Source: Hungatella sp. (GTDB lineage Bacteria; Bacillota; Clostridia; Lachnospirales; Lachnospiraceae). Taken from it: a DNA stretch of 33,008 bases. The position numbers and the translations under genes were made by a program. This document shows, one piece after another, positions 1,900 to 17,036 of this stretch. The notes below the pieces were generated by a model. That model did no database searches and was not told the DNA's origin. It saw only the letters and a list, made by a program, of their open reading frames with translations. The first letter of the stretch is position 1, and every line of letters begins with the position of its first letter. The stretch covers positions 1-33,008 of the forward strand of contig JAAWLV010000006.1 of the NCBI GenBank assembly GCA_022798105.1, written 5' to 3'.

Positions 1900-2745
1900 A
1901 TGAAAACTTATACACTGACCCAGGCTCATATCCGTTCTTATGTCCGTTCCCTGAAAGAGGAGGAGAAGGCACAAGCCACTATTGAAAAATATTCAGGAAC
2001 CCTCCGGGGCTTTTTCATATGGCTGGAGGGCAGACAGGTGACCAGGGAGGCCGTTGCCCAGTGGAAGGCCTATTTGCTGGAGAAGGGCCAGGCCCCGTCC
2101 ACAGTCAACGCCAAGCTTTCCGCCGCCAACAGCCTGTTCCGTTTTCTCGGATGGAAAAACTGCCAGGTAAAATTTTTAAAACTTCAAAAACGCGCCTTCC
2201 GCGATTCTTCAAAGGATCTGACCCGGGAGGAATACAGCCGTCTTCTAAAAACCGCAAATGCCATGCAGGCAGAGTGGCTGGCCCTTTTGATGGAAACTAT
2301 ATGCGCCACCGGCATCCGGGTATCGGAGGTAAAATACATAACGGTGGAGGCGATCCGTTCCAGGCGGGCGGAGGTTTATCTGAAAGGCAAAATCCGGACA
2401 ATCCTGATCCCCGAAAAGCTCTGCCGCAAACTAAAAAAATACGCCGGAAAGAAAAAAATCGTCTGCGGCGAAATCTTTCGATCCGAAGACGGAAAGAACT
2501 TATCACGATATCAAATCTGGAAAGCCATGAAAGCTATCTGCGCAAACGCCGGGGTGGAGGCTTCAAAAGTATTTCCGCACAATCTGCGCCACCTGTTTGC
2601 AGCCACCTTTTATCGGGTTACCCGGGATATTGTAAAGCTGGCAGATATACTGGGCCACAGCTGCGTGGAAACCACCCGCATCTACCTTATGGCTACCGGC
2701 GCGGAGCATGCCCGCCAGTTAGAACAGCTGGGGCTTGTCAATTAA
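1900..2745 (+). CDS. Tyrosine recombinase, likely DNA invertase of the adjacent switch
   Basis: Tyrosine site-specific recombinase of 281 aa (XerC/D, phage-integrase superfamily). An N-terminal SAM-like core-binding domain covers about residues 5-90 and the catalytic domain about 105-275. The full catalytic set is visible: R140 in ATGIRVSE, K164 in the LKGKIR beta-hairpin, H227 and R230 in HNLRH, H253 in LGHSCVETT and nucleophile Y262 in RIYL. AGGAGG at 1885-1890 sits 9 bases before the ATG. No excisionase, phage gene or tRNA attachment site lies next to it. Instead its stop codon is 5 bp from a perfect 19-bp inverted repeat whose partner lies 251 bp further on. Known invertases of this family (Bacteroides Mpi, C. 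difficile RecV) act on such sites, so I infer it flips the segment 2751-3039. The promoter inside that segment currently points into this gene in antisense. Confidence 0.93.
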   Translation: MKTYTLTQAHIRSYVRSLKEEEKAQATIEKYSGTLRGFFIWLEGRQVTREAVAQWKAYLLEKGQAPSTVNAKLSAANSLFRFLGWKNCQVKFLKLQKRAFRDSSKDLTREEYSRLLKTANAMQAEWLALLMETICATGIRVSEVKYITVEAIRSRRAEVYLKGKIRTILIPEKLCRKLKKYAGKKKIVCGEIFRSEDGKNLSRYQIWKAMKAICANAGVEASKVFPHNLRHLFAATFYRVTRDIVKLADILGHSCVETTRIYLMATGAEHARQLEQLGLVN

Positions 2746-2750
2746 TGGAT

Positions 2751-2769
2751 ACGGAATCCGTATTCTGTT
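2751..2769 (+). repeat. Left inverted repeat of the invertible promoter
   Basis: ACGGAATCCGTATTCTGTT, an exact reverse complement of 3021-3039. The site has internal dyad symmetry (ACGGAAT and ATTCTGT flanking CCGT, one mismatch), as expected for two recombinase subunits binding around a short crossover region. It begins 5 bp after the recombinase stop codon. Confidence 0.9.
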
Positions 2770-2803
2770 CCAAGGCAGAAAGACGTCCGCAAATTTTTAG
2801 ATA

Positions 2804-2833
2804 ATTATAACATATTGCAACTTGTAAATGCAA
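2804..2833 (-). promoter_or_regulatory. Strong promoter inside the invertible segment, pointing left
   Basis: On the - strand TTGCAT (2828-2833) and TATAAT (2804-2809) are separated by 18 bp, with TG in the extended -10 position (TGT-TATAAT). The start would be near 2797, giving antisense RNA into the 3' end of the recombinase gene in the present orientation. It is the only strong promoter I see in the segment. Confidence 0.75.
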
Positions 2834-2911
2834 CAGGAAGTTACAAATTAGTACAGAAAACAGAGGCCACAGAATCGTTTTATGCGGTCTTTTTTTGTCG
2901 TGGCTTATATC

Positions 2912-2941
2912 CGCCTGCCCGTACCGGGGCAGGCGTTTTTT
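2912..2941 (+). terminator. Rho-independent terminator inside the invertible segment
   Basis: CGCCTGCCC at 2912-2920 pairs perfectly with GGGCAGGCG at 2927-2935 around a 6-base loop, followed by six T (2936-2941). It is oriented to stop rightward transcription from the recombinase gene before the polysaccharide operon. Confidence 0.85.
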
Positions 2942-3020
2942 ATGCTTATTTAACGCTCATTCATTTGTTTGGGAAACTTCCGTTTTTTCAGTACCCGTGT
3001 GGTTTCCATGGGTTCTATTT

Positions 3021-3039
3021 AACAGAATACGGATTCCGT
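3021..3039 (-). repeat. Right inverted repeat of the invertible promoter
   Basis: AACAGAATACGGATTCCGT, the exact reverse complement of 2751-2769. The match stops abruptly at both ends: the flanking bases differ. It lies 33 bp before the start codon of the first operon gene. Confidence 0.9.
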
Positions 3040-3072: not shown

Positions 3073-3564
3073 ATGGGACATTCCACGAAAAAGCTGAACC
3101 TGGCCGGCCAGATATTCGGTAAATTAACGGTTCTTGAACCGGCCGGGAATATCGGCACCAAAACAGCATGGCTGTGCCGGTGCCAGTGCGGAAAGGAGCT
3201 GGTTGTGAAAACCTGCTATCTGCGCAACGGCCATGTGGTCAGCTGCGGATGCGCGCAGTCGGAAAGCCGCCGCTGCGGGCTGGCCAGCTTAACTTATGTG
3301 GACGGCACCTGTGTGGAGATGCTGCGGGCCAGGACAATCCGCCGCAACAACACCAGCGGAGTGCCGGGGGTGGACTGGCGGCCGTCCAAGGGCACGTGGC
3401 GGGCATCTATCTGCTTTAAAGGCAAACGGTACTATCTGGGAAGCTTTCGCCGGTTTGAGGATGCGGTAGAGGCCAGAAAGCATGCCGAGCAGGAGATGCA
3501 CGACGGATTCCTCAGTGAATTTGCCACGGCACAGGCAGAAAAAATAAAACAGACCGCGGGATAA
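3073..3564 (+). CDS. Zinc-ribbon / AP2-domain DNA-binding protein, first gene of the polysaccharide operon
   Basis: 163 aa starting at ATG 3073, preceded by a GGAGGGGAG ribosome site. The frame is open further upstream across the inverted repeat, but that part is not protein-like and lacks a better start. Residues 8-62 hold the cysteine-rich N-terminal module common in phage HNH/AP2 proteins (GQIFGKLTVLE..., then CRCQCG at 35-40 and SCGC at 57-60, likely metal ligands). Residues about 92-142 match an AP2/ERF-type DNA-binding fold (TSGVPGVDW...GTWRAS...KRYYLGSF...EDAVEARKHAE). No HNH nuclease residues are visible, so I infer a DNA-binding regulator rather than a homing enzyme. It is the first gene reached from the invertible promoter. 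A role in controlling the operon or recombination is plausible but unproven. Confidence 0.82.
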   Translation: MGHSTKKLNLAGQIFGKLTVLEPAGNIGTKTAWLCRCQCGKELVVKTCYLRNGHVVSCGCAQSESRRCGLASLTYVDGTCVEMLRARTIRRNNTSGVPGVDWRPSKGTWRASICFKGKRYYLGSFRRFEDAVEARKHAEQEMHDGFLSEFATAQAEKIKQTAG

Positions 3565-3613
3565 AGCAGGCCCGCAGCTGCAGTACGGAAGGAAGGCAGA
3601 AAGATCCGGGGGG

Positions 3614-4654
3614 ATGGATATGATATGCCACAGAAAGAAGAGTAAATCTCTGGTTATCGTAACCGTGGAGGAGACGGCCGCCACGGTTATAGAGAATGTA
3701 AAACGAAGCAGTTACGGCAGGCAGTATATGCTCAAAAGCGTCCTTATGGATCCAGGCGGAGCCTCAAAAGCCGGCAGCAGGATCGACGGCGTGGAAGTAG
3801 TGGCGGGAAGCGACACGGTGATGGAGTTTGTCTGCCGTGAATGGGTGGATGAAGTCCTCATAGCCCTCCCGAAAGGAACTCCCTTTCCCGAGACATTTTA
3901 CAGCTATCTTCTGGAGATGGGGGTTACGGTCCACTTAAACCTTCTAAAAGCAGCCAAGCTGGAGGGCCGCAGACAGAATGTAAAACAGATTGGCGACTAT
4001 ACCCTTTTAAGCAACAGCTTCTACAGGACATCCTTAAAACAGACAATGTGCAAAAGGCTGATGGATATTGCCGGCGGCATCGCAGGATGTTTTTTTACCG
4101 CGATTCTGTACATATTGATAGGTCCGCTTATTTACATCCATTCGCCAGGCCCCATTTTTTTTGCCCAGGAACGGGTGGGAAAAAATGGAAAACGGTTCCG
4201 CATGTACAAGTTTCGGAGCATGTATCCGGACGCGGAGGAGAGAAAGAAAGAGCTGATGGCCAAAAACCAGGTGAAAGACGGAATGATGTTTAAGATCGAA
4301 AACGATCCCAGGATTATCGGAGGGGAGAAGGGAATCGGAGGATTTATCAGAAGATTTTCCCTGGATGAATTTCCTCAGTTCTGGAACGTGTTAAAAGGGG
4401 ATATGAGCCTGATAGGCAGCAGACCGCCTACGGTGGACGAGTGGATGAAGTATGAGCGGCGCCACAGGATCCGGCTGGCCACAAAGCCTGGTATCACAGG
4501 GCTGTGGCAGATAAGCGGCAGAAGCAAAATTAAAGATTTTGAGGAAGTGGTAAGGCTGGATAAAGAGTATGTGGACAATTGGAGCATTAAAGAGGACATC
4601 CGGATTCTTTTAAAGACGGTAAAGGTGGTCCTTTCAAAGGACGGCGCATGGTAG
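3614..4654 (+). CDS. Initiating phosphosugar transferase, polyprenyl-phosphate (bacterial sugar transferase family)
   Basis: Transfers a sugar-1-phosphate from a nucleotide sugar to undecaprenyl phosphate at the inner face of the membrane, starting repeat-unit assembly. The catalytic domain (about 143-346) is typical: KRLMDIAGG, one hydrophobic re-entrant segment about 155-176, PGPIFFAQERVGKNG, FRMYKFRSM, FIRRFSLDEFPQFWNVLKGDMSLIGSRP with the catalytic Asp-Glu at 251-252, and KPGITGLWQISGRS. Residues 1-140 are a soluble Rossmann-like region. The four-helix membrane bundle of full-length WbaP/CpsE-type enzymes is absent. ATG 3620 is in frame and better spaced from the GGGGGG at 3608-3613, so the start may be two codons later. 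The sugar cannot be told from sequence. Confidence 0.93.
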   Translation: MDMICHRKKSKSLVIVTVEETAATVIENVKRSSYGRQYMLKSVLMDPGGASKAGSRIDGVEVVAGSDTVMEFVCREWVDEVLIALPKGTPFPETFYSYLLEMGVTVHLNLLKAAKLEGRRQNVKQIGDYTLLSNSFYRTSLKQTMCKRLMDIAGGIAGCFFTAILYILIGPLIYIHSPGPIFFAQERVGKNGKRFRMYKFRSMYPDAEERKKELMAKNQVKDGMMFKIENDPRIIGGEKGIGGFIRRFSLDEFPQFWNVLKGDMSLIGSRPPTVDEWMKYERRHRIRLATKPGITGLWQISGRSKIKDFEEVVRLDKEYVDNWSIKEDIRILLKTVKVVLSKDGAW

Positions 4655-4682
4655 GAAACAGGACGCAGAGGGGAGGCGGCAT

Positions 4683-5621
4683 ATGCAGAAGAAGAAACAA
4701 GCAGATGGAAAGGGAAGAGAGCCGGAAACAAGCGGCATATCAGATGCACGGCCCGAAAAGACAGGGATACGCAAGAAGCCCGCAGGAGCCGTGCTTTGGA
4801 TTGTGTTAACGGTCTTTGTCCTGGTTTTGGGCGCCCGTTATGCACTGTCGGATGAGCTGGAGATAACCTTCCACCATCTTTACTCCGGCAAGATGGCATG
4901 CGGGGAGACAGCCCGGGTGGTGGTTTTATCGGACCTGCACAACCGGGAGTTCGGCCCGGGCAATGAACAGCTGGCGGCGCAGATTGCCTCTTTAAAGCCT
5001 GATATCATCGCCATTGTGGGGGATATGGTCAACGCGGACGACGACAATCTGGAGGTCATTCTGACCCTGTGCGATAAACTGGTGAAGATTGCCCCTGTAT
5101 ACTACAGCCCGGGCAACCACGAGAACAATCTCCTCTATGAAAAAGGGAGCCCTCTTGAGGAGCTTCTTTTGGACAAAGGCGTCCACGTCATGGTCAACCG
5201 GGCCGAAAGGGTAACCATACATAAAACCCCCTTCCTCATCGGCAGCCTGACCACGGCACCGGAAGGGTATGAGGAGTACGGCGCCGTATTTTTCGACGAA
5301 TATGAAACAAGTACGGATTTCAAACTCCTCCTTGCCCACTATCCAAGCCTTTACTATGACGCCCTGGCAGACGCCCGGATCGATCTGGGCATCTGCGGGC
5401 ACTACCACGGAGGACAGGTAAGGCTTCCCTTTATCGGAGGCTTATACCATGGGGATGCAGGCCTCTTCCCCAAATATAACGGCGGGATGTACAGCCTGCC
5501 AAAGAGCACGATTTTTGTTTCCAGAGGCATGGGCGGCCACAGCGGCCTTCCGCGGATCAATAACCGGCCTGAGCTGGCCGTCATTGATATCAACGGCAGA
5601 CAGGAAACAGAAATTCCGTGA
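4683..5621 (+). CDS. Membrane-anchored metallophosphoesterase (calcineurin-like)
   Basis: 312 aa. A basic N-terminus and one membrane helix (about 35-53) anchor a phosphoesterase domain, probably outside the cell. All metal-binding motifs are present: SDLHN (D84, H86), VGDMVN (D114), SPGNHE (N145, H146), AHYPS (H219) and GHYHGGQ (H240, H242). This arrangement is that of the YkuE/YaeI-like phosphodiesterases. It sits 28 bases behind the sugar transferase and 24 bases before the next gene, so it belongs to the polysaccharide operon. A role in trimming lipid-linked or phosphodiester-containing glycan is possible; its substrate cannot be read from the sequence. GGGGAGG lies about 7 bases before the ATG. 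Confidence 0.9.
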   Translation: MQKKKQADGKGREPETSGISDARPEKTGIRKKPAGAVLWIVLTVFVLVLGARYALSDELEITFHHLYSGKMACGETARVVVLSDLHNREFGPGNEQLAAQIASLKPDIIAIVGDMVNADDDNLEVILTLCDKLVKIAPVYYSPGNHENNLLYEKGSPLEELLLDKGVHVMVNRAERVTIHKTPFLIGSLTTAPEGYEEYGAVFFDEYETSTDFKLLLAHYPSLYYDALADARIDLGICGHYHGGQVRLPFIGGLYHGDAGLFPKYNGGMYSLPKSTIFVSRGMGGHSGLPRINNRPELAVIDINGRQETEIP

Positions 5622-5645
5622 CTATGAAAAAGGAGTGAGTGCAAC

Positions 5646-7145
5646 ATGATATTAGTAAGCGCAATCGTGCCGGTTTTGACGGTATGCCTGGTTCTCTTGT
5701 TCATCATCCTCATCCGGCGTTTTCTCAGCGTAAGGTCAAAGCTGCCGGTTTTAGGTCTTCAAAACGGGATCAGCCACCTGACCGGAAAGCGGAGATGGCT
5801 GGCGGTGGCGGGAGTCCTGATCTTTCTGGCCTCCTTCGGCGCCCGGGTGAGCACCAAGCTGTGGTCGCCCAATATGCTGATGGTATTTAACTATGAGGAG
5901 GCGGCCAGAGGGCAGAACCCCAATACCACCCGGTTCAATGAGTCCGACATCCTCTCCGACCGCGTTCTGGAGGCGGTTATCCAGAGGGGCGGTCTGCAAA
6001 TAAGCCCGGAGCGGCTGGCCGAAATGCTGACCCTGTCCACCCGCCTGGATGCGGAGAAGCTGGACGTTACCCAGGAATCAAGTTTAAAGATATCGACGGA
6101 GTACTGGGTGCACTGTTCTGAGAAGGTGTCTCTGTACCACACGAACCCAAAGACGGTGCTGAACCTTTTGGCGGACGTGTACTGGGAAGACTTTATCCAG
6201 AATTATGCGGAAAACGACAGCGTCCTGGATTTGTCCTTTGACGAGCTGGAAGGGATGGAGTATCTGGACGTCAAGGATTATCTGCAGATGCATGCCTACA
6301 AGCTGAAAAATTATCTTCCCATGTACAGCAGCGCCAGCAGCAGCTTCCGCGCGGCGGCCGACGGGGAGACCTTTGCCTCCCTGTCCCAGAAGATCGACAA
6401 TTTCATCAAGATTGAGCTGGAACGCTATGAGGCCTTTGTCCTGGAAAACAGCCTTTCCATAGACAAAACCACCTATCAGTCCAGAATGCAGTACGCCAAC
6501 CGGCTGCTGGATATTTCCAGAAAACAGGACATGGCCTCCTACGACGTGCGCATAGAGACCATCAATATGTACAATGCCTTTATGACCCGTTTCGTCCTTA
6601 TTCCCACCTACGACACGGACAAGGAATTTTACATGTCCAAAACCAAAGTCGGAGTGGACTACTTTGCAGACGAGGCCAAGGAACACTTAGAATCCGCCAC
6701 AAAACTGGTGGAGGAGATGGAACACAATTCCTATGCTTCCGACCAGATAGGCAAAAACCTGTCTTCCTCCAATGCATACGCCCAGGCCGATGAACGGATT
6801 GAGGAACTGAAAAATGAGCTCATCAACCTGTCCGCCCAGTGCAGGCAGCTGTGCTCCGCCTACGTAAAAGAGAAACGGGACGGGTATATCCAGGTCAGCT
6901 TCTCCTCGCCCTCCATGGCCGGGGAGGCAGGGAGAGCCTTTTTGTTCACCCTTCTCTTTGTGGCGGCCCTGGGCGGGATCGCCATACTGGATCCCTTCTA
7001 TAAAGCCTGCCGTGAAGACATCCCCGTGGGCGGCGCAGTAAAACAGGCGCTGCAGGGCAAAACCCGGAAAAAATCTAAAAAATCCGGAAAAGGGGCCGTG
7101 AAACCGGAAGGCAAAAACGCGGACAGGGAGGAGGTATCGCCATGA
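5646..7145 (+). CDS. Membrane protein of unknown function, paired with the Wzz-like protein
   Basis: 499 aa, family not recognised. Two hydrophobic segments near the N-terminus (about 3-23 and 52-70), a long extracytoplasmic, helix-rich region with coiled-coil character (about 75-425), a third membrane helix (AFLFTLLFVAALGGIAIL, about 430-450) and a short very basic cytoplasmic tail (KTRKKSKKSGKG...). AAAGGAG lies about 11 bases before the ATG. The stop overlaps the start of the next gene by 4 bases (ATGA at 7142-7145), implying translational coupling with the Wzz-like protein. The layout (membrane helix, long periplasm-side coil, membrane helix) resembles polysaccharide co-polymerases, so it may be a partner or divergent relative of Wzz; this is inference. 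Confidence 0.85.
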   Translation: MILVSAIVPVLTVCLVLLFIILIRRFLSVRSKLPVLGLQNGISHLTGKRRWLAVAGVLIFLASFGARVSTKLWSPNMLMVFNYEEAARGQNPNTTRFNESDILSDRVLEAVIQRGGLQISPERLAEMLTLSTRLDAEKLDVTQESSLKISTEYWVHCSEKVSLYHTNPKTVLNLLADVYWEDFIQNYAENDSVLDLSFDELEGMEYLDVKDYLQMHAYKLKNYLPMYSSASSSFRAAADGETFASLSQKIDNFIKIELERYEAFVLENSLSIDKTTYQSRMQYANRLLDISRKQDMASYDVRIETINMYNAFMTRFVLIPTYDTDKEFYMSKTKVGVDYFADEAKEHLESATKLVEEMEHNSYASDQIGKNLSSSNAYAQADERIEELKNELINLSAQCRQLCSAYVKEKRDGYIQVSFSSPSMAGEAGRAFLFTLLFVAALGGIAILDPFYKACREDIPVGGAVKQALQGKTRKKSKKSGKGAVKPEGKNADREEVSP

Positions 7146-9013
7146 AAGAGCTTGATGTTTTTCGTTATCTGAAAAAGTACCGTGGGTTTATTGCCGGCAT
7201 ATCCGTTTTGGCCGGTGTCGTATTTTTTCTTATCGCCCAGTTTTATATTCAGCAGTACACGGCGGCCACAGTGATTGAGTACACCGGAGCACAGGCCGAG
7301 GACGGGCTTTCCCCGGACGGAACGAAGATCGACACAACGGAGATTTATGCCACCAACCTGGTGGCCCAGGCCATGAAAAAGCTGGATATCCCCTACACCG
7401 AGGCCACAACGGATGATATCCGCATGAACATCCATGTGGAGCCGATTATTACGGAAGAGGATCTTCTGGTGCAGCAGGCAAAACTTGACAACAACGAGAA
7501 GGACTACGAGATAAAGCCCACCAGGCATCTGATAACCTTTAACTGCGGCGTCAAGGCAGGCAAGGACTATCCGCGTAAGGTTTTAAACCAGATCCTTCAG
7601 GAATACGCAAGCTACTACGGAAAGACCCACGTAAACACCTCCCTGGCAGCCAATCCGGTCAGCGACATCACCTCCAAAGGCTACGACTACCTGGAGATGG
7701 CCGAGGTTATGGACGACACCCTCTTAAACATCACAGACCATCTTTCGGACAAGGTCAACTGGAACGGCGAGTTCCGCTCCAGCAAGACGGGAAGAAGCTT
7801 CCAGGATCTGTACGACGAATTTAAGTTTATCAAACAGGTGGAGATCCGCCAGCTGTTCTCCGAGATTCTGGCCGGCAGGATTACGAAAAACCGGGATGTG
7901 CTTTTAGACAAGTACCAGAACCGGAACAACAACCTGGACATATCCAACAAAGCCGCAACCTTTGAGATCGACCGGATTCGGGGGATTATCGGGGCTTACG
8001 AGGGCGCCATGGGCGATTTCGGAACCCCTTCTGTCACGGACGAGGACGGCGAAACCGTTGAGGGCACTCTGCAAAACAGCGTGCTGCCGGATGTGTACGA
8101 CGACTGGAACCGGGATGAGGACGGCAACTGGCAGCCTGTGGATCGGACCGCGGAATACGACCAGCTTCTGATGCGCTACATTGAGGATCGGACTCTTTTT
8201 GAGCACAACCTTATTGAGAAAGAGTACAACGACTACATACTCAGCGTATTTAACGGTGCGGCCTCTGTCTCCTCCCAGGACGATCAGGTCCGGATCCAGC
8301 AGGAGATTGAGCGTTTGGCTCAGAAGATAAATGCCCTGCAGACCGTATATTACGAGACCAACGACGAGTACAATGACTACCTGGGAGCGCAGAATATTGT
8401 GATGCTCTCCAGCGTCAGGGTGACGGAGCGTTTCCCTATCTTTGTGTTTACCATTCTCATTGTGGTGATTTTCGGCGCGCTGGGATGTGCGGGCGCAGCC
8501 CTCTTCGGCAGGATCGAAGACTTTATCGAATACTACGCCTTTACAAACAAAGTGGACGGCCTTCCCAACAGGGCCAAGTGCGACCAGTTTATTACATCCA
8601 GGGAGAGCCGGCCCATTCCCGAAAGCTTTGCCTGTATCGTGTTCAAGCTTGCCAATCTCCAGTCGGAGAACGCCAGGCTTGGAAGAGAGGCCGGCGACAG
8701 GATGATCAAAGATTTCGTCGCGGTGATGACATCGGTTTTTGCACCCTCCGACAAGATGTTCGTGGGCAACAACGGAGCCGGCCAGTATCTGATATTTGCA
8801 GAGTCGCTGGGTAAAGATCAGGTGAATGCAGCCATTCTCCAGCTTTCCATTGTACTTGAGGAGAAGTCCAAGGACTGCGGTTACCATATAGAACTTCAAA
8901 ACGGCTTTGCCTGTGCAGGTGAGGAGCAGTGTTACTATATCCGCCAGCTTCTGTCCACTGCCATGAAACGGGTTCACGGGGCCGGAACCGAAAAAACGGC
9001 CGATACCAGATAA
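7142..9013 (+). CDS. Wzz-like chain-length protein with C-terminal degenerate GGDEF domain
   Basis: 623 aa. Membrane helix 1 (about 17-38), a long outside region with coiled-coil stretches (about 40-428), membrane helix 2 (about 430-456) and a cytoplasmic C-terminal domain from about 467. The two-helix plan is that of polysaccharide co-polymerases, which set glycan length. The C-terminal part keeps a GGDEF-domain outline (NKVDGLPNRAKCDQF, then REAGDRMIKDF, then the signature strand) but the active site reads GAGQY at 545-549 instead of GG(D/E)EF, the metal-binding FDID motif is FKLAN, and no RxxD inhibitory site precedes it. It is therefore probably not a cyclase, but may be a nucleotide- or protein-binding regulatory domain. 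It occupies the position taken by the tyrosine kinase domain in Wzc proteins. Its start overlaps the stop of the preceding gene. Confidence 0.85.
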   Translation: MKELDVFRYLKKYRGFIAGISVLAGVVFFLIAQFYIQQYTAATVIEYTGAQAEDGLSPDGTKIDTTEIYATNLVAQAMKKLDIPYTEATTDDIRMNIHVEPIITEEDLLVQQAKLDNNEKDYEIKPTRHLITFNCGVKAGKDYPRKVLNQILQEYASYYGKTHVNTSLAANPVSDITSKGYDYLEMAEVMDDTLLNITDHLSDKVNWNGEFRSSKTGRSFQDLYDEFKFIKQVEIRQLFSEILAGRITKNRDVLLDKYQNRNNNLDISNKAATFEIDRIRGIIGAYEGAMGDFGTPSVTDEDGETVEGTLQNSVLPDVYDDWNRDEDGNWQPVDRTAEYDQLLMRYIEDRTLFEHNLIEKEYNDYILSVFNGAASVSSQDDQVRIQQEIERLAQKINALQTVYYETNDEYNDYLGAQNIVMLSSVRVTERFPIFVFTILIVVIFGALGCAGAALFGRIEDFIEYYAFTNKVDGLPNRAKCDQFITSRESRPIPESFACIVFKLANLQSENARLGREAGDRMIKDFVAVMTSVFAPSDKMFVGNNGAGQYLIFAESLGKDQVNAAILQLSIVLEEKSKDCGYHIELQNGFACAGEEQCYYIRQLLSTAMKRVHGAGTEKTADTR

Positions 9014-9034
9014 AAACGTGGGGAGGGTTGGAGC

Positions 9035-10315
9035 TTGGTTTCCATCATTTACATGCTACTGGCAACTGCAATGTTTTTTCTGCAGGACACCTATTTTTTG
9101 CTGGGCGGCGTTGAATTCAGCCTGAAAAATCCCTGCATTATAGGGATCCTGTTCCTTGCGCTTTTGAATTTTACCGTGACGGTCAGGCTGGATCGGGTTA
9201 TCATCCTGGCGCGCCACGGGGTGACCCAGATGCTCCCCCTTGTGATCCCCTTTCTCTTCTCGTCCGTCATCTGGGTGGCCCAGAAGGCGGACGGGGTCAC
9301 GATTATAAACGGCATCGGCATGATAATCCCCCAGATACTGTCAATCTTCGTGGCAGCGTCAACCTTGTACCTGTTTGGGGAAAAGGGGATCTGGTACTGC
9401 CTGGGCGCCATGTGCCTGGCCAATTTCCTGCGAGTATTGGCAGTCATCGCACAGGGAGGCGCATCAGCTTTTTTCCAGGAATTTATCACCCTTTTAGCAT
9501 CGTTCAGCGGGGAAACCGGCCCTCTGATGCTGGCCCTGGAAATCAATGACCTGACCTTTGCCTTCGGCCCCTTTTTGATCTATCTGCTCCTGAACCGGAA
9601 GGAGACGTCCCACTGGCTTTTCTGGCTTGTGTGCTCGTCGGTTTTCTTTCTGATCGGCCTGAAGCGGATTGCCATTCCGGCCGTGGCCCTGGGTTTTTTT
9701 GTGGCCTGGCTTGTGCGCAGGATGCCTGAAAAGGCGGCAAGACAGACGGCTCTGTGTCTGGGGGCGGGGATGATATTCTGCAGTTTCATGTACATTGTGG
9801 GGATACGGATGGGGCTCTTTCAGTATCTGCAGGAACGGCTTGGAATCAATGCCATGGGCCGGGTGGAGATGTTTACCAACCTGGAACCCTACTATGACAT
9901 AAGCATTACCTTTATGGGCCGGGGCACAGGTTTTGAAAGGTTTGTGGACTGGGCTTCCGGGGTCGTATACGATACTCCCCGGCGCACCATCATGCAGATC
10001 CACAATGATTTTCTCAGGATGTACCTGAACATCGGGTTTATCGGGTATCTGGTATGGCTCTGGGGGTATCTGATTGTGCGGCTCCGCTACTGGTTCTGGC
10101 AGGGCGGCAAAGACGCAGGGTGCCTGTTTCTCGGCATCTGCATCTACTGCTTTGTCCTCTATGCCACGGACAACACCATCTACTATCCCTACACCATGCT
10201 TGCCTGTGCCCTGGTGCCCATGTCCTGCCGCTTCCATGACATGGCGGCAGATATCTTTGAAGAGCACTGTGTTCGGTGGAGCAAAATGGGAGGGAATGAT
10301 TTCTTTGAGGGATAA
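9035..10315 (+). CDS. Polysaccharide polymerase, Wzy-like
   Basis: 426 aa integral membrane protein with about ten predicted helices, starting at TTG 9035, 8 bases after GGGAGG (9021-9026). The long loop around residues 270-325 and the following LRMYLNIGFIGYLVWLWGYL segment fit the Wzy/O-antigen polymerase group, whose sequences are very divergent. Position supports the call: it lies between a Wzz-like protein and the glycosyltransferases, and no other gene in the operon could polymerise the repeat unit. It would join flipped repeat units on the outer face of the membrane. The gene overlaps the next start by 20 bases, so translation is probably coupled. Confidence 0.8.
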   Translation: MVSIIYMLLATAMFFLQDTYFLLGGVEFSLKNPCIIGILFLALLNFTVTVRLDRVIILARHGVTQMLPLVIPFLFSSVIWVAQKADGVTIINGIGMIIPQILSIFVAASTLYLFGEKGIWYCLGAMCLANFLRVLAVIAQGGASAFFQEFITLLASFSGETGPLMLALEINDLTFAFGPFLIYLLLNRKETSHWLFWLVCSSVFFLIGLKRIAIPAVALGFFVAWLVRRMPEKAARQTALCLGAGMIFCSFMYIVGIRMGLFQYLQERLGINAMGRVEMFTNLEPYYDISITFMGRGTGFERFVDWASGVVYDTPRRTIMQIHNDFLRMYLNIGFIGYLVWLWGYLIVRLRYWFWQGGKDAGCLFLGICIYCFVLYATDNTIYYPYTMLACALVPMSCRFHDMAADIFEEHCVRWSKMGGNDFFEG

Positions 10316-10775
10316 ACGAATAAAATTGTGTTTTGCGGCGTCCTCCGGCGGCCATCTGGATGAGCTTCTCAGGTTAAGGCCTCTCATGGAGCGCTGCGAC
10401 AGCTTTCTCGTCACCGAGAAGACAGCCTACAGGCCGGCCGGACTCAACGTAACGTGCTATTACCTGCTTCAGGTCAACCGGCGGGAACCATCCTGTTTCT
10501 TAAGGCTGATTGCCAACGGATGGCTTTCCCTGAGGATTTTCCTTAAGGAACGGCCCGACGTGGTTATCTCCACCGGGGTCCTTGCTGTCATACCCCTCTG
10601 CCTTTTGTGCAGAGTCTTCCGGAAAAAGCTTATCTTTATCGAGACCTTTGCCAACGTAAAGACGCCTACCATGACCGGAAGGCTTCTCTACCGCTTTGCG
10701 GACCGCTTTTATATCCAGTGGCCCCAGCTGCAGAAATACTATCCCAAAGCCGTGTACAAGGGCGGCGTTTACTGA
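10296..10775 (+). CDS. Alg14/PssD-like glycosyltransferase membrane subunit
   Basis: 159 aa. The N-terminus KLCFAASSGGHLDELLRL is the hallmark of the Alg14/PssD/Cps14F family, which anchors and activates an Alg13/PssE-type catalytic partner to form a two-part glycosyltransferase. PDVVISTGVLAVIPLCLLCR is the conserved acceptor-side segment. The first codons overlap the end of the polymerase gene. ATG 10296 has GGGAGG only 2 bases upstream; an in-frame TTG at 10305 would have better spacing, so the start is uncertain by three codons. The Alg13-like partner follows after 10 bases, but as part of a larger fused protein. Confidence 0.85.
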   Translation: MISLRDKRIKLCFAASSGGHLDELLRLRPLMERCDSFLVTEKTAYRPAGLNVTCYYLLQVNRREPSCFLRLIANGWLSLRIFLKERPDVVISTGVLAVIPLCLLCRVFRKKLIFIETFANVKTPTMTGRLLYRFADRFYIQWPQLQKYYPKAVYKGGVY

Positions 10776-10785
10776 GGTGAACATC

Positions 10786-12360
10786 ATGATATTTGTGACA
10801 GTCGGTTCCCAGAAATTTCCCTTTAACCGCCTGATTAAAAAGGTGGATCAGCTGGTCAGGGAGGGAGGTATCCTGGAGGAAGTCTGTATTCAGACAGGCA
10901 CCAGCGATTACACCCCCCGCAGCTGCCGTTATAAGGCGTTCTATGACCAGGAGACATTTAAACAGATGGTCGGCGCATGCAGTGTCCTCATCACCCACGG
11001 AGGCGTAGGGACGGTAATTGACGCCGTAAGGCGGGGGAAAAAGGTGGTGGCAGTGCCGCGTCTTTTCAGATACGGGGAGCATGTGGACGATCACCAGCTG
11101 CAGATTCTGGAGCGCTTCCATGAGATGAATCTTATTGAGTACTGTTTGGATATAGAAAAGCTTGGGGAGGCTGTTAAGAGGGCTCAAACCCGGGAATACG
11201 CCGCATACCCGTCCAACACCGGGACCTTTGTGGAGTCCGTTGACAGATACATCCGCTCACTGAACGGAGGGGCCCCTGTAAACGTAAAGCCAAAAAGGCG
11301 GCTGAGAGTTCTGGTAATCGGCCCCAGCCACATCCGTTCTCTGGGAGGCATGGCCGCAGTCATCAGGGATATAAAAGAAAGCCGTCTGCTTAACAGGGAG
11401 TTTGACATCCGCATATTTCCCTCTTACATAGACGGCAATCTGGCTCTGCGCCTTTTGTACTCCGGCTGGGGGTATCTGCGGTTTCTGACCTGTTTCAGGC
11501 AATACGACCTGTTCCACATCCACACTGCTGAAAGAGGCAGCACCTTCCGGAAAAATTTCTATTTGCGGAAAATAAAAAAGGCGGGGAAACGGGCAATCGT
11601 GCACATCCACGGCGCGGAGTACCTGACTTTTTACGACGGTCTCGGACCTTTTGGCAGGAGAATTGTGGATCGGTTTTTTTGCCGTGCGGATTTGGTGCTG
11701 GCTTTGTCGGACAGCTGGCGAAGGGAACTGGAGGCCCGCTTTCACACCGGCACCTGCCGGACGCTGAACAACGGAATTGACACCGTTTATTTTAAAGCGG
11801 CAGCAGGAGATGTAAAAAACCTTAGAAATTCGTTTCTGATGCTTGGAAGGCTGGGAAAGCGCAAAGGGACTTACGATCTGATTGACGCCGTGGAGCTTGC
11901 GGTCCGCAAAAACCCGGAAATTTCCGTCTGCCTGGCAGGGGACGGGGAGGTGGAGAAGGTGCGCAGGCTGGTTGAGGAAAAAGGGCTTAAAAAGTATATC
12001 CATGTTCCCGGCTGGGTAGATGGCAGGCAAAAGCTTGAGTACCTGAAAAGGGCCGCAACCCTGGTCCTTCCGTCTTACTATGAGGGGCTGCCCATGGCGG
12101 TTTTGGAGGGGATGGCCGGCGGAAAAGCCATCCTGAGCACCTGTGTGGGCGCAATCCCGGAGGTGGTTTCGGAGGAAAACGGCATCCTGGTACAGCCTGG
12201 GGATGTGGCCGGGCTGGCAGAGGGCCTTCTGCGCTTAAGCAGTGACACAGGCCTCCTTGAAACCATGTCGCGGAACAATATGGAAAAAGCCGGACACTGC
12301 TTCAGCGTCAGTCAGATACACAGACAGCTGGCCGGGTATTACAGGCAGGCCATGAAATAA
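10786..12360 (+). CDS. Fusion of an Alg13/PssE-like domain and a GT4 glycosyltransferase
   Basis: 524 aa in one frame. Residues 1-160 are a complete Alg13/PssE-like domain: MIFVTVGSQKFPFNRLIKKVD at the start and LITHGGVGTVIDAVRRGKK with a later GEHVDDHQLQI segment, the donor nucleotide-sugar site. After a linker, residues about 175-520 form a GT-B fold GT4 enzyme: VLVIGPSHIRSLGGMAAVI, VLALSDSWRRE, LNNGIDTVYF, LMLGRLGKRKG, and EGLPMAVLE with the E433/E441 pair of the EX7E motif. One polypeptide could thus add two sugars, the first together with the Alg14-like protein encoded just before. ATG 10786 is chosen because Alg13-like proteins begin MIFVTVG; in-frame GTG 10777 is the alternative. No frameshift is needed to explain the fusion. 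Confidence 0.9.
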   Translation: MIFVTVGSQKFPFNRLIKKVDQLVREGGILEEVCIQTGTSDYTPRSCRYKAFYDQETFKQMVGACSVLITHGGVGTVIDAVRRGKKVVAVPRLFRYGEHVDDHQLQILERFHEMNLIEYCLDIEKLGEAVKRAQTREYAAYPSNTGTFVESVDRYIRSLNGGAPVNVKPKRRLRVLVIGPSHIRSLGGMAAVIRDIKESRLLNREFDIRIFPSYIDGNLALRLLYSGWGYLRFLTCFRQYDLFHIHTAERGSTFRKNFYLRKIKKAGKRAIVHIHGAEYLTFYDGLGPFGRRIVDRFFCRADLVLALSDSWRRELEARFHTGTCRTLNNGIDTVYFKAAAGDVKNLRNSFLMLGRLGKRKGTYDLIDAVELAVRKNPEISVCLAGDGEVEKVRRLVEEKGLKKYIHVPGWVDGRQKLEYLKRAATLVLPSYYEGLPMAVLEGMAGGKAILSTCVGAIPEVVSEENGILVQPGDVAGLAEGLLRLSSDTGLLETMSRNNMEKAGHCFSVSQIHRQLAGYYRQAMK

Positions 12361-12378
12361 GGGGGAGGGCAAACTAAG

Positions 12379-13368
12379 ATGGGAGGGGACAAACCCGTTA
12401 TCAGCGTCATTGTGCCGGTGTACAATGTGGAGGCGTGGTTGAAAACATGCCTTGACTCCATAAGGGCGCAGACCTATGAAAATTTTGAACTTATCCTTGT
12501 AAACGACGCCTCCACGGACAGCAGCGGTGCTGTCTGCGACGCTTACGCCCTGGAGGATAAAAGGCTGTCGGTCGTGCATTTTCCCGTAAACCGGGGGCCG
12601 TCCGCAGCCAGAAATGAGGGCATAAGAAGGGCGGCCGGTAAATTTATCTCCTTTATAGACGCGGACGACTATGTGGAACCGGATATGCTGGAAAGGCTGT
12701 ACGTATGCCTGAGAAAAACCAGGGCTGACATTGCCGCCTGCGGGGCTGACGGCATCAAAATAACCGGCGGGCCTGCCGCTTCTTACTCCCGCAAGGAAGC
12801 AATGGGCTGCCTGGCCAGGGGCACCCCCTTTAACCATGTTCCCTGGGGAAAGCTTTACGCCGCAGAACCCGTAAAAAAACATCTGTTTGACGAGGGGATC
12901 TTTTTCAGCGAGGACCTTCTGTTTCTGTATTATGTGCTGAAAGAAACCGACAGGGTCAGTTACATACCGGATAAGCTGTACCATTACGTCTGCCGCCAGG
13001 GAAGCCAGGTGCACAGCGGCGTCAGCAAACGCAAATGTACCGCCCTCCCTGTTTATGACAGGATATGCCGGGACGCCAAACTAAATTTCCCCGGCACCGT
13101 GCCTGATTTTCAGCAGCAGGCGCTGGATGTGGATTCGCGGCAGGCCATGCTGGCGGTGGAAAGCTGTGCCGGCGCCGGGGAGGCCTTCAGATACGTAAAA
13201 AGGTTCAGCCGGCATACCCGCAGGCATTTTACCTGGAAGGCCTGGCGGCTGTGCCGCGGCAAAAAAAACAAGGCGGCCCCGCTGCTTCTCTATATCAGCC
13301 CGTCGCTTTTCTGGGGAGCTGCCACGGCCTACAAACATATAAAGCGGTTAAAGGACAGACTGGGATGA
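12379..13368 (+). CDS. Family 2 glycosyltransferase (first of tandem pair)
   Basis: 329 aa, GT-A fold. ISVIVPVYNVEAWLKTCLDS at the N-terminus, NDASTDSS with the nucleotide-binding D43, GPSAARNEGI, and DADD at 94-97 for metal and UDP-sugar binding. The C-terminal 100 residues are basic and probably sit on the membrane surface. GGGGAGGG at 12361-12368 precedes the ATG by about 10 bases. Its stop overlaps the start of the next gene (ATGA, 13365-13368), and the two proteins are alike over their whole length. It adds one sugar to the lipid-linked repeat; donor and linkage are not readable. Confidence 0.92.
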   Translation: MGGDKPVISVIVPVYNVEAWLKTCLDSIRAQTYENFELILVNDASTDSSGAVCDAYALEDKRLSVVHFPVNRGPSAARNEGIRRAAGKFISFIDADDYVEPDMLERLYVCLRKTRADIAACGADGIKITGGPAASYSRKEAMGCLARGTPFNHVPWGKLYAAEPVKKHLFDEGIFFSEDLLFLYYVLKETDRVSYIPDKLYHYVCRQGSQVHSGVSKRKCTALPVYDRICRDAKLNFPGTVPDFQQQALDVDSRQAMLAVESCAGAGEAFRYVKRFSRHTRRHFTWKAWRLCRGKKNKAAPLLLYISPSLFWGAATAYKHIKRLKDRLG

Positions 13369-14363
13369 AGAGAGAGCTACCATTAATCAGCGTGATTGTA
13401 CCTGTGTACAATGTAAAACCCTATGTAGAAAAATGCCTGGATTCCCTCCGGGCACAGACATACGATAACCTTGAGATTATTGCGGTGGACGACGCCTCCA
13501 CAGACGGAAGCGGCAGTATCTGCGATGCCAAGGCTTCTGAGGACTGCCGGCTGCAGGTCGTCCATTTTCCTGCAAACCGCGGATTGTCCGCCGCCAGAAA
13601 TGAAGGAGTATTAAGGGCTAAGGGAGAATATACCGCATTTGTGGATTCGGACGACTATGTTAAACCCGATATGCTTTTGAAACTGTACCGCAGTCTGCGG
13701 GAAAACAGAGCGGATGTAAGCGTCTGCGCCAATATTGGGCTGAAGGTGAAGAAGGCGCCGGCCGGCGTCTATTCTGCAGCAGAGGCAGTTGCCTGTATGG
13801 CCAGGCGCAGGCCTTTCCTCTGGACGGCGTGGGGAAAACTTTATCCCACAGAACTTGTAAAACGACACCCCTTTCATGAGAAGGCGCTCTGCTGTGAGGA
13901 TCTGCTGTTTTTTTATGAGATTCTTAAAGAGGTAAAAAACTTAAGCTACATACCGGATGAGCTGTACAACTATGTCTACAGGCAGGGAAGCCTGATAAAC
14001 AGCAGAATTGGCAAAAAGAGGTGCACCGTTCTCGCTGTCGCAGGCAGCATCTGCAGGGATGCCCGCGTGAATTTCCCTCAGGCGCTGCCGGGCTTTCTGC
14101 AGATAGCCCTGGCCGTAAATGCGCGTCTGGCCATGGAGGCCGTGGAGTACGGCACAAAAGAAGGGAGTCTTACCGCCTATCTGACCCTGTTCCAGAAACA
14201 TATCAGGCGCCATTTTACATGGAAGGCCCTGGCTGTCAACCCTGACCTAAAAACCATGGCCGCAATTCTCACCCTTTCTGTCAGCCGGAGGGCCTTCTTC
14301 TTTTTTGCCTCCGTCTACGGATGCCTAAAACGTCTGAGAGCCAAAAGACCAAATACGGAGTGA
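13365..14363 (+). CDS. Family 2 glycosyltransferase (second of tandem pair)
   Basis: 332 aa, GT-A fold, start ATG 13365 overlapping the preceding stop by 4 bases. Motifs are at the same positions as in its neighbour: D43 in VDDASTDGSG, GLSAARNEG, DSDD at 94-97. The two proteins remain clearly similar through the C-terminal basic region (KHIRRHFTWKA here, RHTRRHFTWKA there), so they arose by tandem duplication; divergence suggests different acceptor or donor. The frame is open further upstream inside the neighbour, but a start there would overlap it by more than 100 bases and lacks a ribosome site. Confidence 0.92.
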   Translation: MKRELPLISVIVPVYNVKPYVEKCLDSLRAQTYDNLEIIAVDDASTDGSGSICDAKASEDCRLQVVHFPANRGLSAARNEGVLRAKGEYTAFVDSDDYVKPDMLLKLYRSLRENRADVSVCANIGLKVKKAPAGVYSAAEAVACMARRRPFLWTAWGKLYPTELVKRHPFHEKALCCEDLLFFYEILKEVKNLSYIPDELYNYVYRQGSLINSRIGKKRCTVLAVAGSICRDARVNFPQALPGFLQIALAVNARLAMEAVEYGTKEGSLTAYLTLFQKHIRRHFTWKALAVNPDLKTMAAILTLSVSRRAFFFFASVYGCLKRLRAKRPNTE

Positions 14364-14368
14364 AGCCA

Positions 14369-15904
14369 ATGGAGCACGCAAAGCATGTGGTGAAAAATTT
14401 GAAGTTTACGGCAGTCAGCGAACTGACCCTGGCCGTGCTGAAATTTTTGTCCCGCCGGGTATTCGTCCTTCTTCTGGGGAAAGAATATCTGGGAATCAAC
14501 GGGCTTTTTACGGATATTCTCTCCATGCTGTCCCTGGCGGAGCTGGGATTCGGAGTCTCCATCACCTACAGCCTGTACCAGCCGGTGGCTAAGGGGGACG
14601 AGGAACTGATAAAATCGCTGATGGCCCTGTACGGCCGTTTTTACCGGGCAGTGGGCATGGTGGTTTTAGCCGCCGGGCTGTGCCTGCTGCCCTTTCTTGA
14701 TTTCTTTGTAAAGGAAATGCCGGAACATATCCCCCACATATCCCTTATCTATATCCTGAATGTGGCAAATGTCAGTGTTTCCTATTTCTGTTCCTACAAA
14801 TCCACGCTTCTGTTTGTGTGTCAGAAAAAATATGTGGACTCCTTGATACGGGCCGCAGCCGGGCTCCTTGCCACAGCGGCCCAGATTGGGGTGCTTTTAT
14901 TGACGGGAAATTATCTCTGCTATCTGTGCATTGCCATTTTATCCACAATCCTGCAGAATGGAGCCGTTTCTGCAGCGGCAGATAACCTCTACCCTTATCT
15001 GAAAAGGGGGAAGGAGAAAGGGAGGGGGCAGATACAGCCTGTTCCCGCCAATATTTTAGCGGATATCCGCCGCAATGTCAGTGCCATGATCCTTCACCGC
15101 GTCGGCAGCGTGGCGGTTTTCGGCACGGACAACGTACTGATTTCGAAGTTTGTGGGCATTGGCATCACAGGACTGTACTCCAACTACATAATGATACGGA
15201 ATTTTTTAAATGTCATCACCAACACGGTGTTCAATGCCATCACCCCGGCCATGGGGAACTTAAACGTGACGGGGACTGTGGAAGAAAAGAGAAGGACCTT
15301 TTCCCGTCTCAATTTTTTTGCGGCCTGGCTGTTCGGGTGGATGAGCATCTGCCTTCTGTGGCTCTACGACCCGTTTATTACCCTCTGGCTGGGGGAGGGA
15401 TTTCTGCTTCCCAGGCCGGTGGTGGCGCTGATTGTGGCTAATTTCTATCTTAACAGCATGCGTGTCCCTGTGGCAAACACCAAAAGCATCATGGGGCTGT
15501 TCTGGGATGAGCGGTACAAGTCGGTTTTGGAGGCTTTTATGAATCTGGCAGTATCCGTCGCGCTGGCCCGGCGGTGGGGCATCAGCGGGATTCTTTTGGG
15601 GACGTTTATAAGCACGGCCTCGCTGCCTTTTTGGATTGAGCCTCTGGGGCTTTACCGGCACGGCCTGAAAGAGCCTGTGAGACGGTATTTTTCCCGCTAT
15701 TTCTGTTATTTGTCAGTGACCGCCGCTGCCGGGGCAATCACGGGCCTTCTGTGCAGCCTGGCCCAAGGGTCGGTTTTCGGCTTTTTTCTTAAACTTTTCT
15801 TCTGCACGGTGATCCCCAACAGCATATACCTGGCTGTCTACGGACGAATGGAGGAATTTCGTTTTATGAAAAGCCTGGTACATTGCAGAAATAACGGTGA
15901 ATAA
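14369..15904 (+). CDS. Wzx-like lipid-linked oligosaccharide flippase
   Basis: 511 aa with 12-14 predicted membrane helices, of the polysaccharide-specific MOP exporter group (Wzx/RfbX). KFTAVSELTLAVLKFLSRRVFVLLLGKEYLGINGLF and the downstream YSLYQP region are typical of Gram-positive Wzx proteins. It moves the undecaprenyl-linked repeat unit across the membrane to the polymerase. ATG 14369 lies 8 bases after GGAG (14357-14360); an upstream in-frame ATG at 14321 would overlap the previous gene by 43 bases and is less likely. It is the last gene of the operon, followed by a disrupted hairpin and a T run. Confidence 0.92.
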   Translation: MEHAKHVVKNLKFTAVSELTLAVLKFLSRRVFVLLLGKEYLGINGLFTDILSMLSLAELGFGVSITYSLYQPVAKGDEELIKSLMALYGRFYRAVGMVVLAAGLCLLPFLDFFVKEMPEHIPHISLIYILNVANVSVSYFCSYKSTLLFVCQKKYVDSLIRAAAGLLATAAQIGVLLLTGNYLCYLCIAILSTILQNGAVSAAADNLYPYLKRGKEKGRGQIQPVPANILADIRRNVSAMILHRVGSVAVFGTDNVLISKFVGIGITGLYSNYIMIRNFLNVITNTVFNAITPAMGNLNVTGTVEEKRRTFSRLNFFAAWLFGWMSICLLWLYDPFITLWLGEGFLLPRPVVALIVANFYLNSMRVPVANTKSIMGLFWDERYKSVLEAFMNLAVSVALARRWGISGILLGTFISTASLPFWIEPLGLYRHGLKEPVRRYFSRYFCYLSVTAAAGAITGLLCSLAQGSVFGFFLKLFFCTVIPNSIYLAVYGRMEEFRFMKSLVHCRNNGE

Positions 15905-16118: not shown

Positions 16119-17036
16119 ATGGAAAAAATATTGATTGTTGACGACAGTTCCACACAGGCGCTGCAATTAAAATCTATTTTAGACGATGATTATGACATAA
16201 CCGTTGCCCAGACAGCAGAAACGGGCCTTTCCTACGCCAGTTCCGAGGATTTCTCGCTGATTCTTCTGGATGTGGTTATGCCCGGGATGGATGGATTTAC
16301 GCTGTTAAAGAAACTGCAGGAGGAGATTATCACCCAGAGTGTGCCGGTGATCCTGATTACGAGCCTTTCCGATATTCAGCACGAACAGCTGGGGCTGACC
16401 CTTGGGGCGGTGGACTACATATCCAAGCCTTTCCATCCGCTGATTGTAAAGGCCAGGGTTAACACCCACATCAAGCTCTACAGGTACAGAAAGCAGGTAG
16501 AGCGCCAGTCCATGACCGACCAGCTGACCGGTATCGCCAACCGGCGGCAGCACGACTGCTACAGCATCATAAAATGGAACGAGGCTATCCGCTTAAAGGT
16601 TCCCTTTTCCGTCTGCATGTTTGATATTGACTATTTTAAAGTGTACAACGACACCTTCGGCCACCCGGCCGGCGACAAGGTCATTGCCAGCGTGGCAAAG
16701 GTGATAGCCTCCCATCTGCAGCGCAGCACTGACTTTCTGGCCCGGTACGGGGGAGAAGAATTCGTGGCTTTCTTTTTGGGTGACAGCGCGGTCTCGGCAT
16801 TTGAGTATCTGAAAAAAATCCGCAAGGCGGTGGAGGATCTGCACATTCCCCACAACCCGTCCAAATCCCAGTGGGTAACGGTCAGCATCGGCGGCATAAC
16901 CCTGATTCCCCTGCGGGAGAACTCCTACGAGGTCTACTTAAAGCTTGCGGACACTATGCTGTACGATGCCAAAAAGCTTGGCCGCAACCGGGTAGTGTGG
17001 GCCAACGAAAAGATGAATCAGTGGTATGAGGAGTGA
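16119..17036 (+). CDS. Response regulator with GGDEF output (PleD/WspR-like diguanylate cyclase)
   Basis: 305 aa. Receiver domain 1-120 with the acidic pocket IVDDS, phospho-acceptor D51 in LILLDVVMPGMDG, switch T81 and K103 in SKPF. A short linker leads to a GGDEF domain (about 130-300) with all catalytic features: MTDQLTGIANRR, FDIDYFKVYNDTFGHPAGD, and GGEEF at 211-215. RSTD at 202-205, five residues before GGEEF, is the RxxD inhibitory site, so product feedback by c-di-GMP is expected. It makes c-di-GMP from GTP when phosphorylated. AGGGGAG at 16107-16113 precedes the ATG. No kinase is adjacent; the hybrid kinase at 20340 is a possible partner. It lies directly behind the polysaccharide operon but has its own strong promoter. 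Confidence 0.95.
   Translation: MEKILIVDDSSTQALQLKSILDDDYDITVAQTAETGLSYASSEDFSLILLDVVMPGMDGFTLLKKLQEEIITQSVPVILITSLSDIQHEQLGLTLGAVDYISKPFHPLIVKARVNTHIKLYRYRKQVERQSMTDQLTGIANRRQHDCYSIIKWNEAIRLKVPFSVCMFDIDYFKVYNDTFGHPAGDKVIASVAKVIASHLQRSTDFLARYGGEEFVAFFLGDSAVSAFEYLKKIRKAVEDLHIPHNPSKSQWVTVSIGGITLIPLRENSYEVYLKLADTMLYDAKKLGRNRVVWANEKMNQWYEE

Follow-up and report, generated by a model that had tools for sequence, protein, structure and literature searches.

A predicted invertible promoter beside a tyrosine recombinase gene and a polysaccharide gene cluster in Hungatella sp.

Judged from sequence, the short segment between a tyrosine recombinase gene and a polysaccharide gene cluster of Hungatella sp. 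is an invertible promoter and belongs to a large family of such cassettes in gut Clostridia. The neighbouring enzyme very probably flips the segment, turning the sugar-coat gene cluster on and off, and we hold with high confidence that the locus is a phase-variation switch operated by this recombinase. The features are listed in Table 1. The window is the whole stretch of DNA that was analysed, 33,008 nucleotides long, and is contig C126 of a 2.6-Mb assembly (73% complete). A preliminary description had proposed that the polysaccharide cluster is governed by an invertible promoter with its own tyrosine recombinase and that the promoter is OFF as sequenced; comparison with relatives supports this proposal.

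Table 1 Features of the predicted switch and its target cluster in the window.
Feature	Position	Strand	Basis
Tyrosine recombinase, 281 aa, proposed invertase of the switch	1900-2745	+	PF00589 2.1e-25; N-terminal SAM-like PF02899
Inverted repeat arm 1	2751-2769	+	Recombination site ACGGAAT-CCGT-ATTCTGT
Invertible segment (predicted), 251 bp	2770-3020	No strand	Repeat search; comparison with relatives
Promoter TTGCAT-18-TATAAT, facing the recombinase, OFF for the cluster	2804-2833	-	Weighted score, by sequence
Intrinsic terminator, hairpin then six T, facing the cluster at present	2912-2935	+	Strong; hairpin z -2.9
Inverted repeat arm 2	3021-3039	-	Arm comparison; site pattern
First switched gene, 163-aa zinc-ribbon/AP2 predicted DNA-binding protein	3073-3564	+	
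Polyprenyl-phosphate sugar-1-phosphate transferase (initiating enzyme)	3614-4654	+	PF02397; TIGR03025 over cut-off
Calcineurin-like phosphoesterase	4683-5621	+	PF00149
ORF without Pfam or NCBIfam match at 0.001	5646-7145	+	
Large protein with C-terminal GGDEF-like domain	7142-9013	+	PF00990 1.6e-5
Polymerase-like protein (Wzy_C, sub-cut-off)	9035-10315	+	PF04932 1e-5, 25.8 bits vs 31.7
Alg14-like glycosyltransferase subunit, start codon approximate	10311-10775	+	PF08660
Fusion of GT28 C-terminal (Alg13-like) domain and GT4 glycosyltransferase	10786-12360	+	PF04101, PF00534
Family 2 glycosyltransferase	12379-13368	+	PF00535
Family 2 glycosyltransferase	13365-14363	+	PF00535
Flippase-like protein (Wzx), last cluster gene	14321-15904	+	NF041503 WZX_like 9.8e-5, 21.6 bits vs cut-off 300

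The two arms are complementary at 19/19 positions and enclose 251 nt. The recombinase ORF ends such that arm 1 follows the gene by 5 bp, and 33 bp separate arm 2 from the first downstream gene; these distances, given in the preliminary description, are exact by coordinates. By our own arithmetic, an exact 19-bp inverted repeat within 700 bp has a chance expectation of about 1e-5 per 3.5 kb. Each arm is a two-sided recombination site by itself, with half-sites ACGGAAT and ATTCTGT on either side of the core CCGT. In the mechanism that we propose, the recombinase would bind both 18-19-bp sites and exchange strands inside the common 4-nt core, and this exchange would reversibly invert the segment. 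In the OFF orientation, which is the one sequenced, the only strong promoter would be directed across arm 1 and antisense into the 3'-terminal part of the recombinase gene, and the terminator would block transcription coming from the recombinase toward the cluster. After inversion to ON, the promoter would lie immediately upstream of arm 2 and drive the AP2 gene, followed by the ten polysaccharide genes.

Residues R140, K164, H227, R230, H253, and Y262 of the recombinase, which we take to be catalytic by motif, are invariant among seven aligned recombinase sequences. The nearest named relatives, among the best 80 of 530, are Hungatella sp. metagenome bins, in which the recombinase is 80% identical. 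The best NCBIfam matches are Xer-type and far under their cut-offs. A weak, sub-cut-off likeness to integron integrases and Xer enzymes could be taken to mean that the protein is an integron-like enzyme or a mobile-element integrase, with the repeat as a part of its attachment site. However, the two sites are located on the same side of the gene, most family members have arm 1 close to the stop codon, and relatives carry the segment in inverted form. We therefore reject the integrase reading, which can hardly be correct.

The weighted promoter score within the segment is 12.8 bits on the minus strand versus 5.3 bits on the other strand, so that the predicted promoter faces away from the cluster. 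A scan with the stock consensus yields one weak 9/12 site, also on the minus strand; with 1 site found versus 2.6 expected it stays at or under chance and therefore lends the promoter no support. The earlier claim of one strong promoter inside the repeat thus holds by weighted score and by conservation, but not by the consensus scan. The element TTGCA(A/T)-18-TATAAT faces the recombinase in six loci (the window, L016, L040, L038, L042, and L019), one of the other five being the copy on contig C49 of the same genome, and in the same six loci a hairpin with a T run faces the cluster. The terminator is absent from the preliminary description.

Across the family, the best promoter score is at least 12 in 78 of 110 interiors versus 40 of 550 shuffles. 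By promoter direction, 87 of the 110 interiors are OFF, 12 are ON, and 11 are unclear; the contig of locus L114 is excluded from these counts because its end is palindromic. The OFF excess has a p of about 3e-15, which is overstated, the loci being related. It indicates that assemblies mostly catch the OFF state, and in part it could reflect switches that are locked or seldom flip. We expect cells of the window strain to be mostly OFF.

The orientation of the terminator bears on a switch of another type, in which transcription starts upstream, for example at the recombinase promoter, inversion decides read-through, and the inner promoter is minor. Such a switch has a precedent in C. difficile cwpV (in the part of PMC2784873 used here); when the segment is OFF, its strong terminator, which is conserved in the window's clade, is turned toward the cluster, and terminator and promoter are opposed in 44 of the 57 OFF interiors that could be scored. 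Yet the window's clade also conserves a strong promoter of definite direction within the segment, inner promoters score far over shuffles family-wide, and the called promoter direction is opposite in L093 and L095, in L148 and L186, in L158 versus L155 and L160, and in L030 versus L044. A terminator-type switch is thus improbable, and an invertible promoter remains our reading of the segment. The terminators do not fit this reading throughout: they oppose the promoter in only 3 of 7 scorable ON interiors, and the stronger terminator in L093 and L095 runs with the promoter, not against it.

A relative of the recombinase is found at E <= 1e-30 in 16 of 26 genus genomes, with at least 56% identity in 10 of 26, and at E <= 1e-60 in 78 of 397 sampled family genomes (counted by recombinase, not by repeat). 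A named-genome scan yielded 530 relatives, and the titles of the best 80 of them include, among others, Hungatella, Oscillibacter, Pseudoflavonifractor, Parablautia, Lachnospiraceae, and Oscillospiraceae. We pooled these 80 loci with 26 from the genus, 30 from the family search, and 40 regions hand-chosen from the family match list, which gives 170 recombinase ORFs and 157 unique loci, 135 of them with at least 500 bp downstream. Near the recombinase stop of these 135 loci, a repeat scores at least 14 in 108 and at least 12 in 115; none of score 14 is found in 27, and none of score 12 in 20. In 99 of the 108, the repeat starts no more than 27 bp before or 35 bp past the end of the stop codon. 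With the same scoring, 62 of 90 recombinase loci reach score 14 (duplicates and the assembly palindrome L114 included) versus 8 of 1438 control regions taken from these loci.

Almost all of these repeats (106 of 108) fit the pattern ACNNAAT-N4-ATTNNGT, and exactly 4 nt separate the half-sites in every one, with spacings of 3-7 allowed. Both arms carry the same core in 106/106, a result partly favoured by the method, since repeats are detected by comparing arms and those with agreeing centres are picked up more readily. The arms agree less often in the half-sites, in 74 repeats for the left one and in 84 for the right one. The family has 63 distinct cores, and only 70 of 5565 between-cassette pairs have a common core. 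This pattern fits strand exchange by a tyrosine recombinase that would need matching, not particular, cores. Comparison of the loci shows that the anatomy of the predicted site, the promoter, and the terminator are conserved.

Comparison with relatives also documents inversion exactly at such repeats. In L093 and L095, which come from different bins, the 245-bp interiors are 99.6% identical and reversed exactly at the repeats, and the preceding 1.8 kb are 94.6% identical and collinear. The interiors of L148 and L186, paralogues on one contig, are reversed over 173 bp at 80%; L158 is reversed versus L155 and L160 (55 bp at 80%), and, as a weaker case, so is the C8 copy of the window genome versus L031 and L044 (66 bp, 74%). 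Most homologous interiors that align have the same orientation. Minus-strand matches in L070/L083 (38 bp) and L078/L115 (58 bp) are not counted because these pairs match far better in the same orientation. The preliminary description had suggested that orientation be compared in related genomes, and both orientations are found there (L093/L095, L148/L186, and L158 versus L155/L160), though OFF prevails. L093 and L095 each have three site copies after the recombinase stop, at about +6, +81, and +347, so more than one segment could invert.

The contig of L114 runs from the recombinase through an arm, the segment, and another arm into the reverse complement of the same recombinase end. Different segment ends are present at its two junctions, both joined to one recombinase flank, a sign of both orientations within one sample. 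Contig ends are unevenly placed as well: of 80 contigs, 10 end at most 120 bp after the recombinase stop and 0 at most 120 bp before the ORF, the corresponding numbers being 11 versus 2 within 200 bp and 16 versus 6 within 400 bp. In L061, L065, L097, L109, and L138, the contig ends at or within a few bases of arm 1. A contig end beside such a recombinase may be a marker of an active inverton. As the relatives are for the most part metagenome bins and assemblers are misled by repeats, it could be argued that the inverted pairs and contig breaks are assembly artefacts. This is very unlikely: the inversion between L093 and L095, whose bins differ, coincides exactly with the repeats, L065 and L109 do not carry MAG titles, the inverted paralogues L148 and L186 have diverged to 80%, and a 19-bp repeat is shorter than the usual assembly words.

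The window strain's own locus is represented by one sequence in one orientation. The five other loci aligned with the window all have that orientation, which, together with the 87 to 12 excess of OFF, would also be expected of a fossil repeat, a former switch now locked OFF in this strain. We consider a fossil unlikely, as both arms are perfect, the recombinase is intact with all expected residues, and the sister cassette on contig C8 of the same genome reads ON. We infer that the segment flips in the window strain and that the enzyme encoded beside it is responsible; the cluster would be silent when OFF.

The layout of recombinase, repeat, and AP2 gene is found on contigs C49 and C8 of the window genome as well, where the repeats measure 18 nt and 22 nt and match at 94% and 95%, respectively. 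The promoter is OFF in the window and on C49 and ON on C8. The half-site pattern occurs six times in this genome, at three loci that each have a recombinase of their own, so a single master recombinase for the genome is unsupported. Three more single half-site matches, with 2-3 mismatches and no partner in the match list, lie on contigs C147, C171, and C208. The window repeat (2751-3039) and the C49 repeat (L002 1597-1863) have the same 4-nt core and nearly the same half-sites. Because the cores are identical, cross-talk is possible, with one enzyme acting on the other's sites or joining both loci. The two sister cassettes, the AP2 leader gene, and the family-wide site pattern do not appear in the preliminary description.

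The cluster (3073-15904) comprises eleven ORFs, all on the plus strand, and neighbours overlap slightly or lie no more than 49 bp apart. The number given for the proposed eleven-gene polysaccharide operon is therefore right, but its first gene encodes the AP2 protein and is no polysaccharide gene. From gene order, the protein at 7142-9013 may be guessed to be a chain-length regulator. The signature motif of its GGDEF-like domain looks degenerate; a c-di-GMP link to polysaccharide export is possible. The flippase-like protein has no Pfam match. Immediately past the cluster, the window encodes a response regulator with a strong GGDEF domain (16119-17036).

To type the first genes of other cassettes, we took the same-strand ORF starting at most 200 bp past arm 2, which is available in 76 of 105 loci with enough downstream sequence. 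The AP2 profile matches 18 of the 76, of which 14 are single-domain and 4 multi-domain proteins; Pfam's AP2 model matches 11. By Pfam, 8 of the 76 are signal peptidase S26-like, and others include regulators, sugar transferases, and surface proteins. The N-terminal tyrosine recombinase domain is matched by 9 of the 76 and the catalytic domain by 3. In our own reading of the sequences, the first ORF carries the N-terminal domain in L055, L057, L060, L066, L085, L098, L100, L108, and L183. Where the first switched gene matches this domain, the ON state might yield an enzyme that alters flipping. Behind the family switch in L044, the AP2 gene is followed by a 1599-aa serine-rich protein (9962-14761) with an LPXTG-anchor likeness just under the cut-off.

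The same AP2 leader also stands behind a serine recombinase gene and a short invertible-type segment, at L193 1309-1465 and L200 1297-1447 (same-genus genome G004). The enzyme class there is unrelated and the position of the switch equivalent. The AP2 protein is most likely a DNA-binding regulator that belongs to the switch and not to sugar synthesis.

The window contains an intact tyrosine recombinase with its domains and expected residues, perfect inverted repeats around a short segment (19/19 bp, 251 bp), and a directional promoter called from sequence inside it, as in fim-like invertons. In E. coli, the fimB/fimE recombinase genes lie close beside the invertible promoter (fimS) and its operon, and orientation-dependent termination after fimE biases the switch OFF, according to the portion of PMC2784873 considered. 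The window resembles fim in that the recombinase gene adjoins the invertible promoter and the target operon. It differs in having polysaccharide instead of fimbriae genes, one recombinase, an AP2 leader gene, and a terminator of intrinsic type, whereas the fim terminator is Rho-dependent.

RecV of C. difficile is an XerC/XerD-type tyrosine recombinase of the cwpV and flagellar switches (PMC2784873, PMC5903667, both in part). In the cwpV switch, which is predominantly OFF, 195 bp separate two imperfect inverted repeats of 21 bp (same part of PMC2784873). The likeness to the window, a tyrosine recombinase in Clostridia, is by description and not by recombinase sequence; unlike the window enzyme, RecV acts on several switches, and cwpV transcription starts outside the segment (PMC2784873, PMC5903667, as far as these extracts go). 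Also close by description is the hCom2 catalogue of 2025 (extracts of PMC11892184), in which inverton group 139 comprises 33 invertons, 32 of them of Clostridia, with a tyrosine invertase (group 35) near almost all. Both there and in the window, a Clostridia inverton is paired with a nearby tyrosine invertase, and read data in the same extracts record orientation shifts in culture for Clostridium sp. D5 and Intestinimonas butyriciproducens. The description of groups 139 and 35 in these extracts (PMC11892184) contains no AP2 protein, whereas the window has an AP2 leader. The compact cassette of recombinase, switch, and operon in a Firmicute is thus borne out as a layout, but the pairing of inverton and invertase in Clostridia was already in print (PMC11892184, extracts). 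With fim, RecV, and the group 139 switches known, the window switch is of a known kind.

Bacteroides Mpi is a serine recombinase that acts on many capsule loci, which have UpxY/UpxZ leaders. Invertible promoters before polysaccharide operons and a leader gene in first position are common to the Mpi-controlled capsule promoters and the window. In contrast to the Mpi system, the window genome has a tyrosine recombinase at each of its three loci, and the leader is AP2. The window genome (73% complete) contains nothing that matches a set of two serine recombinase sequences (A4) at 1e-20, and a UpxY-type antiterminator is absent as leader of the window cluster, where the AP2 gene is first and the sugar transferase gene second. 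The match with the Mpi layout suggested in the preliminary description therefore fails, the adjacent enzyme being of PF00589, and membership in the Mpi system is rejected on account of this enzyme, the AP2 leader, and the lack of an A4 match at 1e-20. The layout is nearer to that of the E. coli fim switch.

A literature search by term, in which absence is weak evidence, found no mention of the AP2 leader, whether at these switches or as first gene behind those of the serine recombinase type, of the site rule with its N4 core, or of the antisense promoter geometry of the OFF state. The window locus would be a self-contained module of enzyme, defined sites, promoter, terminator, and target cluster, and the site rule is simple enough for predicting switches from sequence. 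The AP2 leader behind tyrosine- and serine-type switches is a concrete, unstudied protein whose role is testable. Tentatively, and as less likely than not, we suggest a joint reading in which AP2 serves phase-variable operons of Clostridia as their dedicated leader regulator and the antisense transcript of the OFF state lowers the recombinase. If so, AP2 would be made only when the switch is ON, in a role like that of UpxY/UpxZ in Bacteroides, and would have been acquired behind switches of two unrelated recombinase classes. It would bind DNA at its own or at sister switches, of which the genome has three, and this binding would favour one surface operon at a time or set the inversion bias. 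The lowered recombinase would make OFF stable and would explain the 87:12 excess.

Switchable surface sugars decide the encounters of gut bacteria with phages, immunity, and mucus. To our knowledge, they are well worked out in Bacteroides and hardly in Lachnospiraceae and Oscillospiraceae. The cassettes described here suggest that many related gut bacteria have switches of this kind, often with the gene of the same small AP2 protein as the first to be driven.
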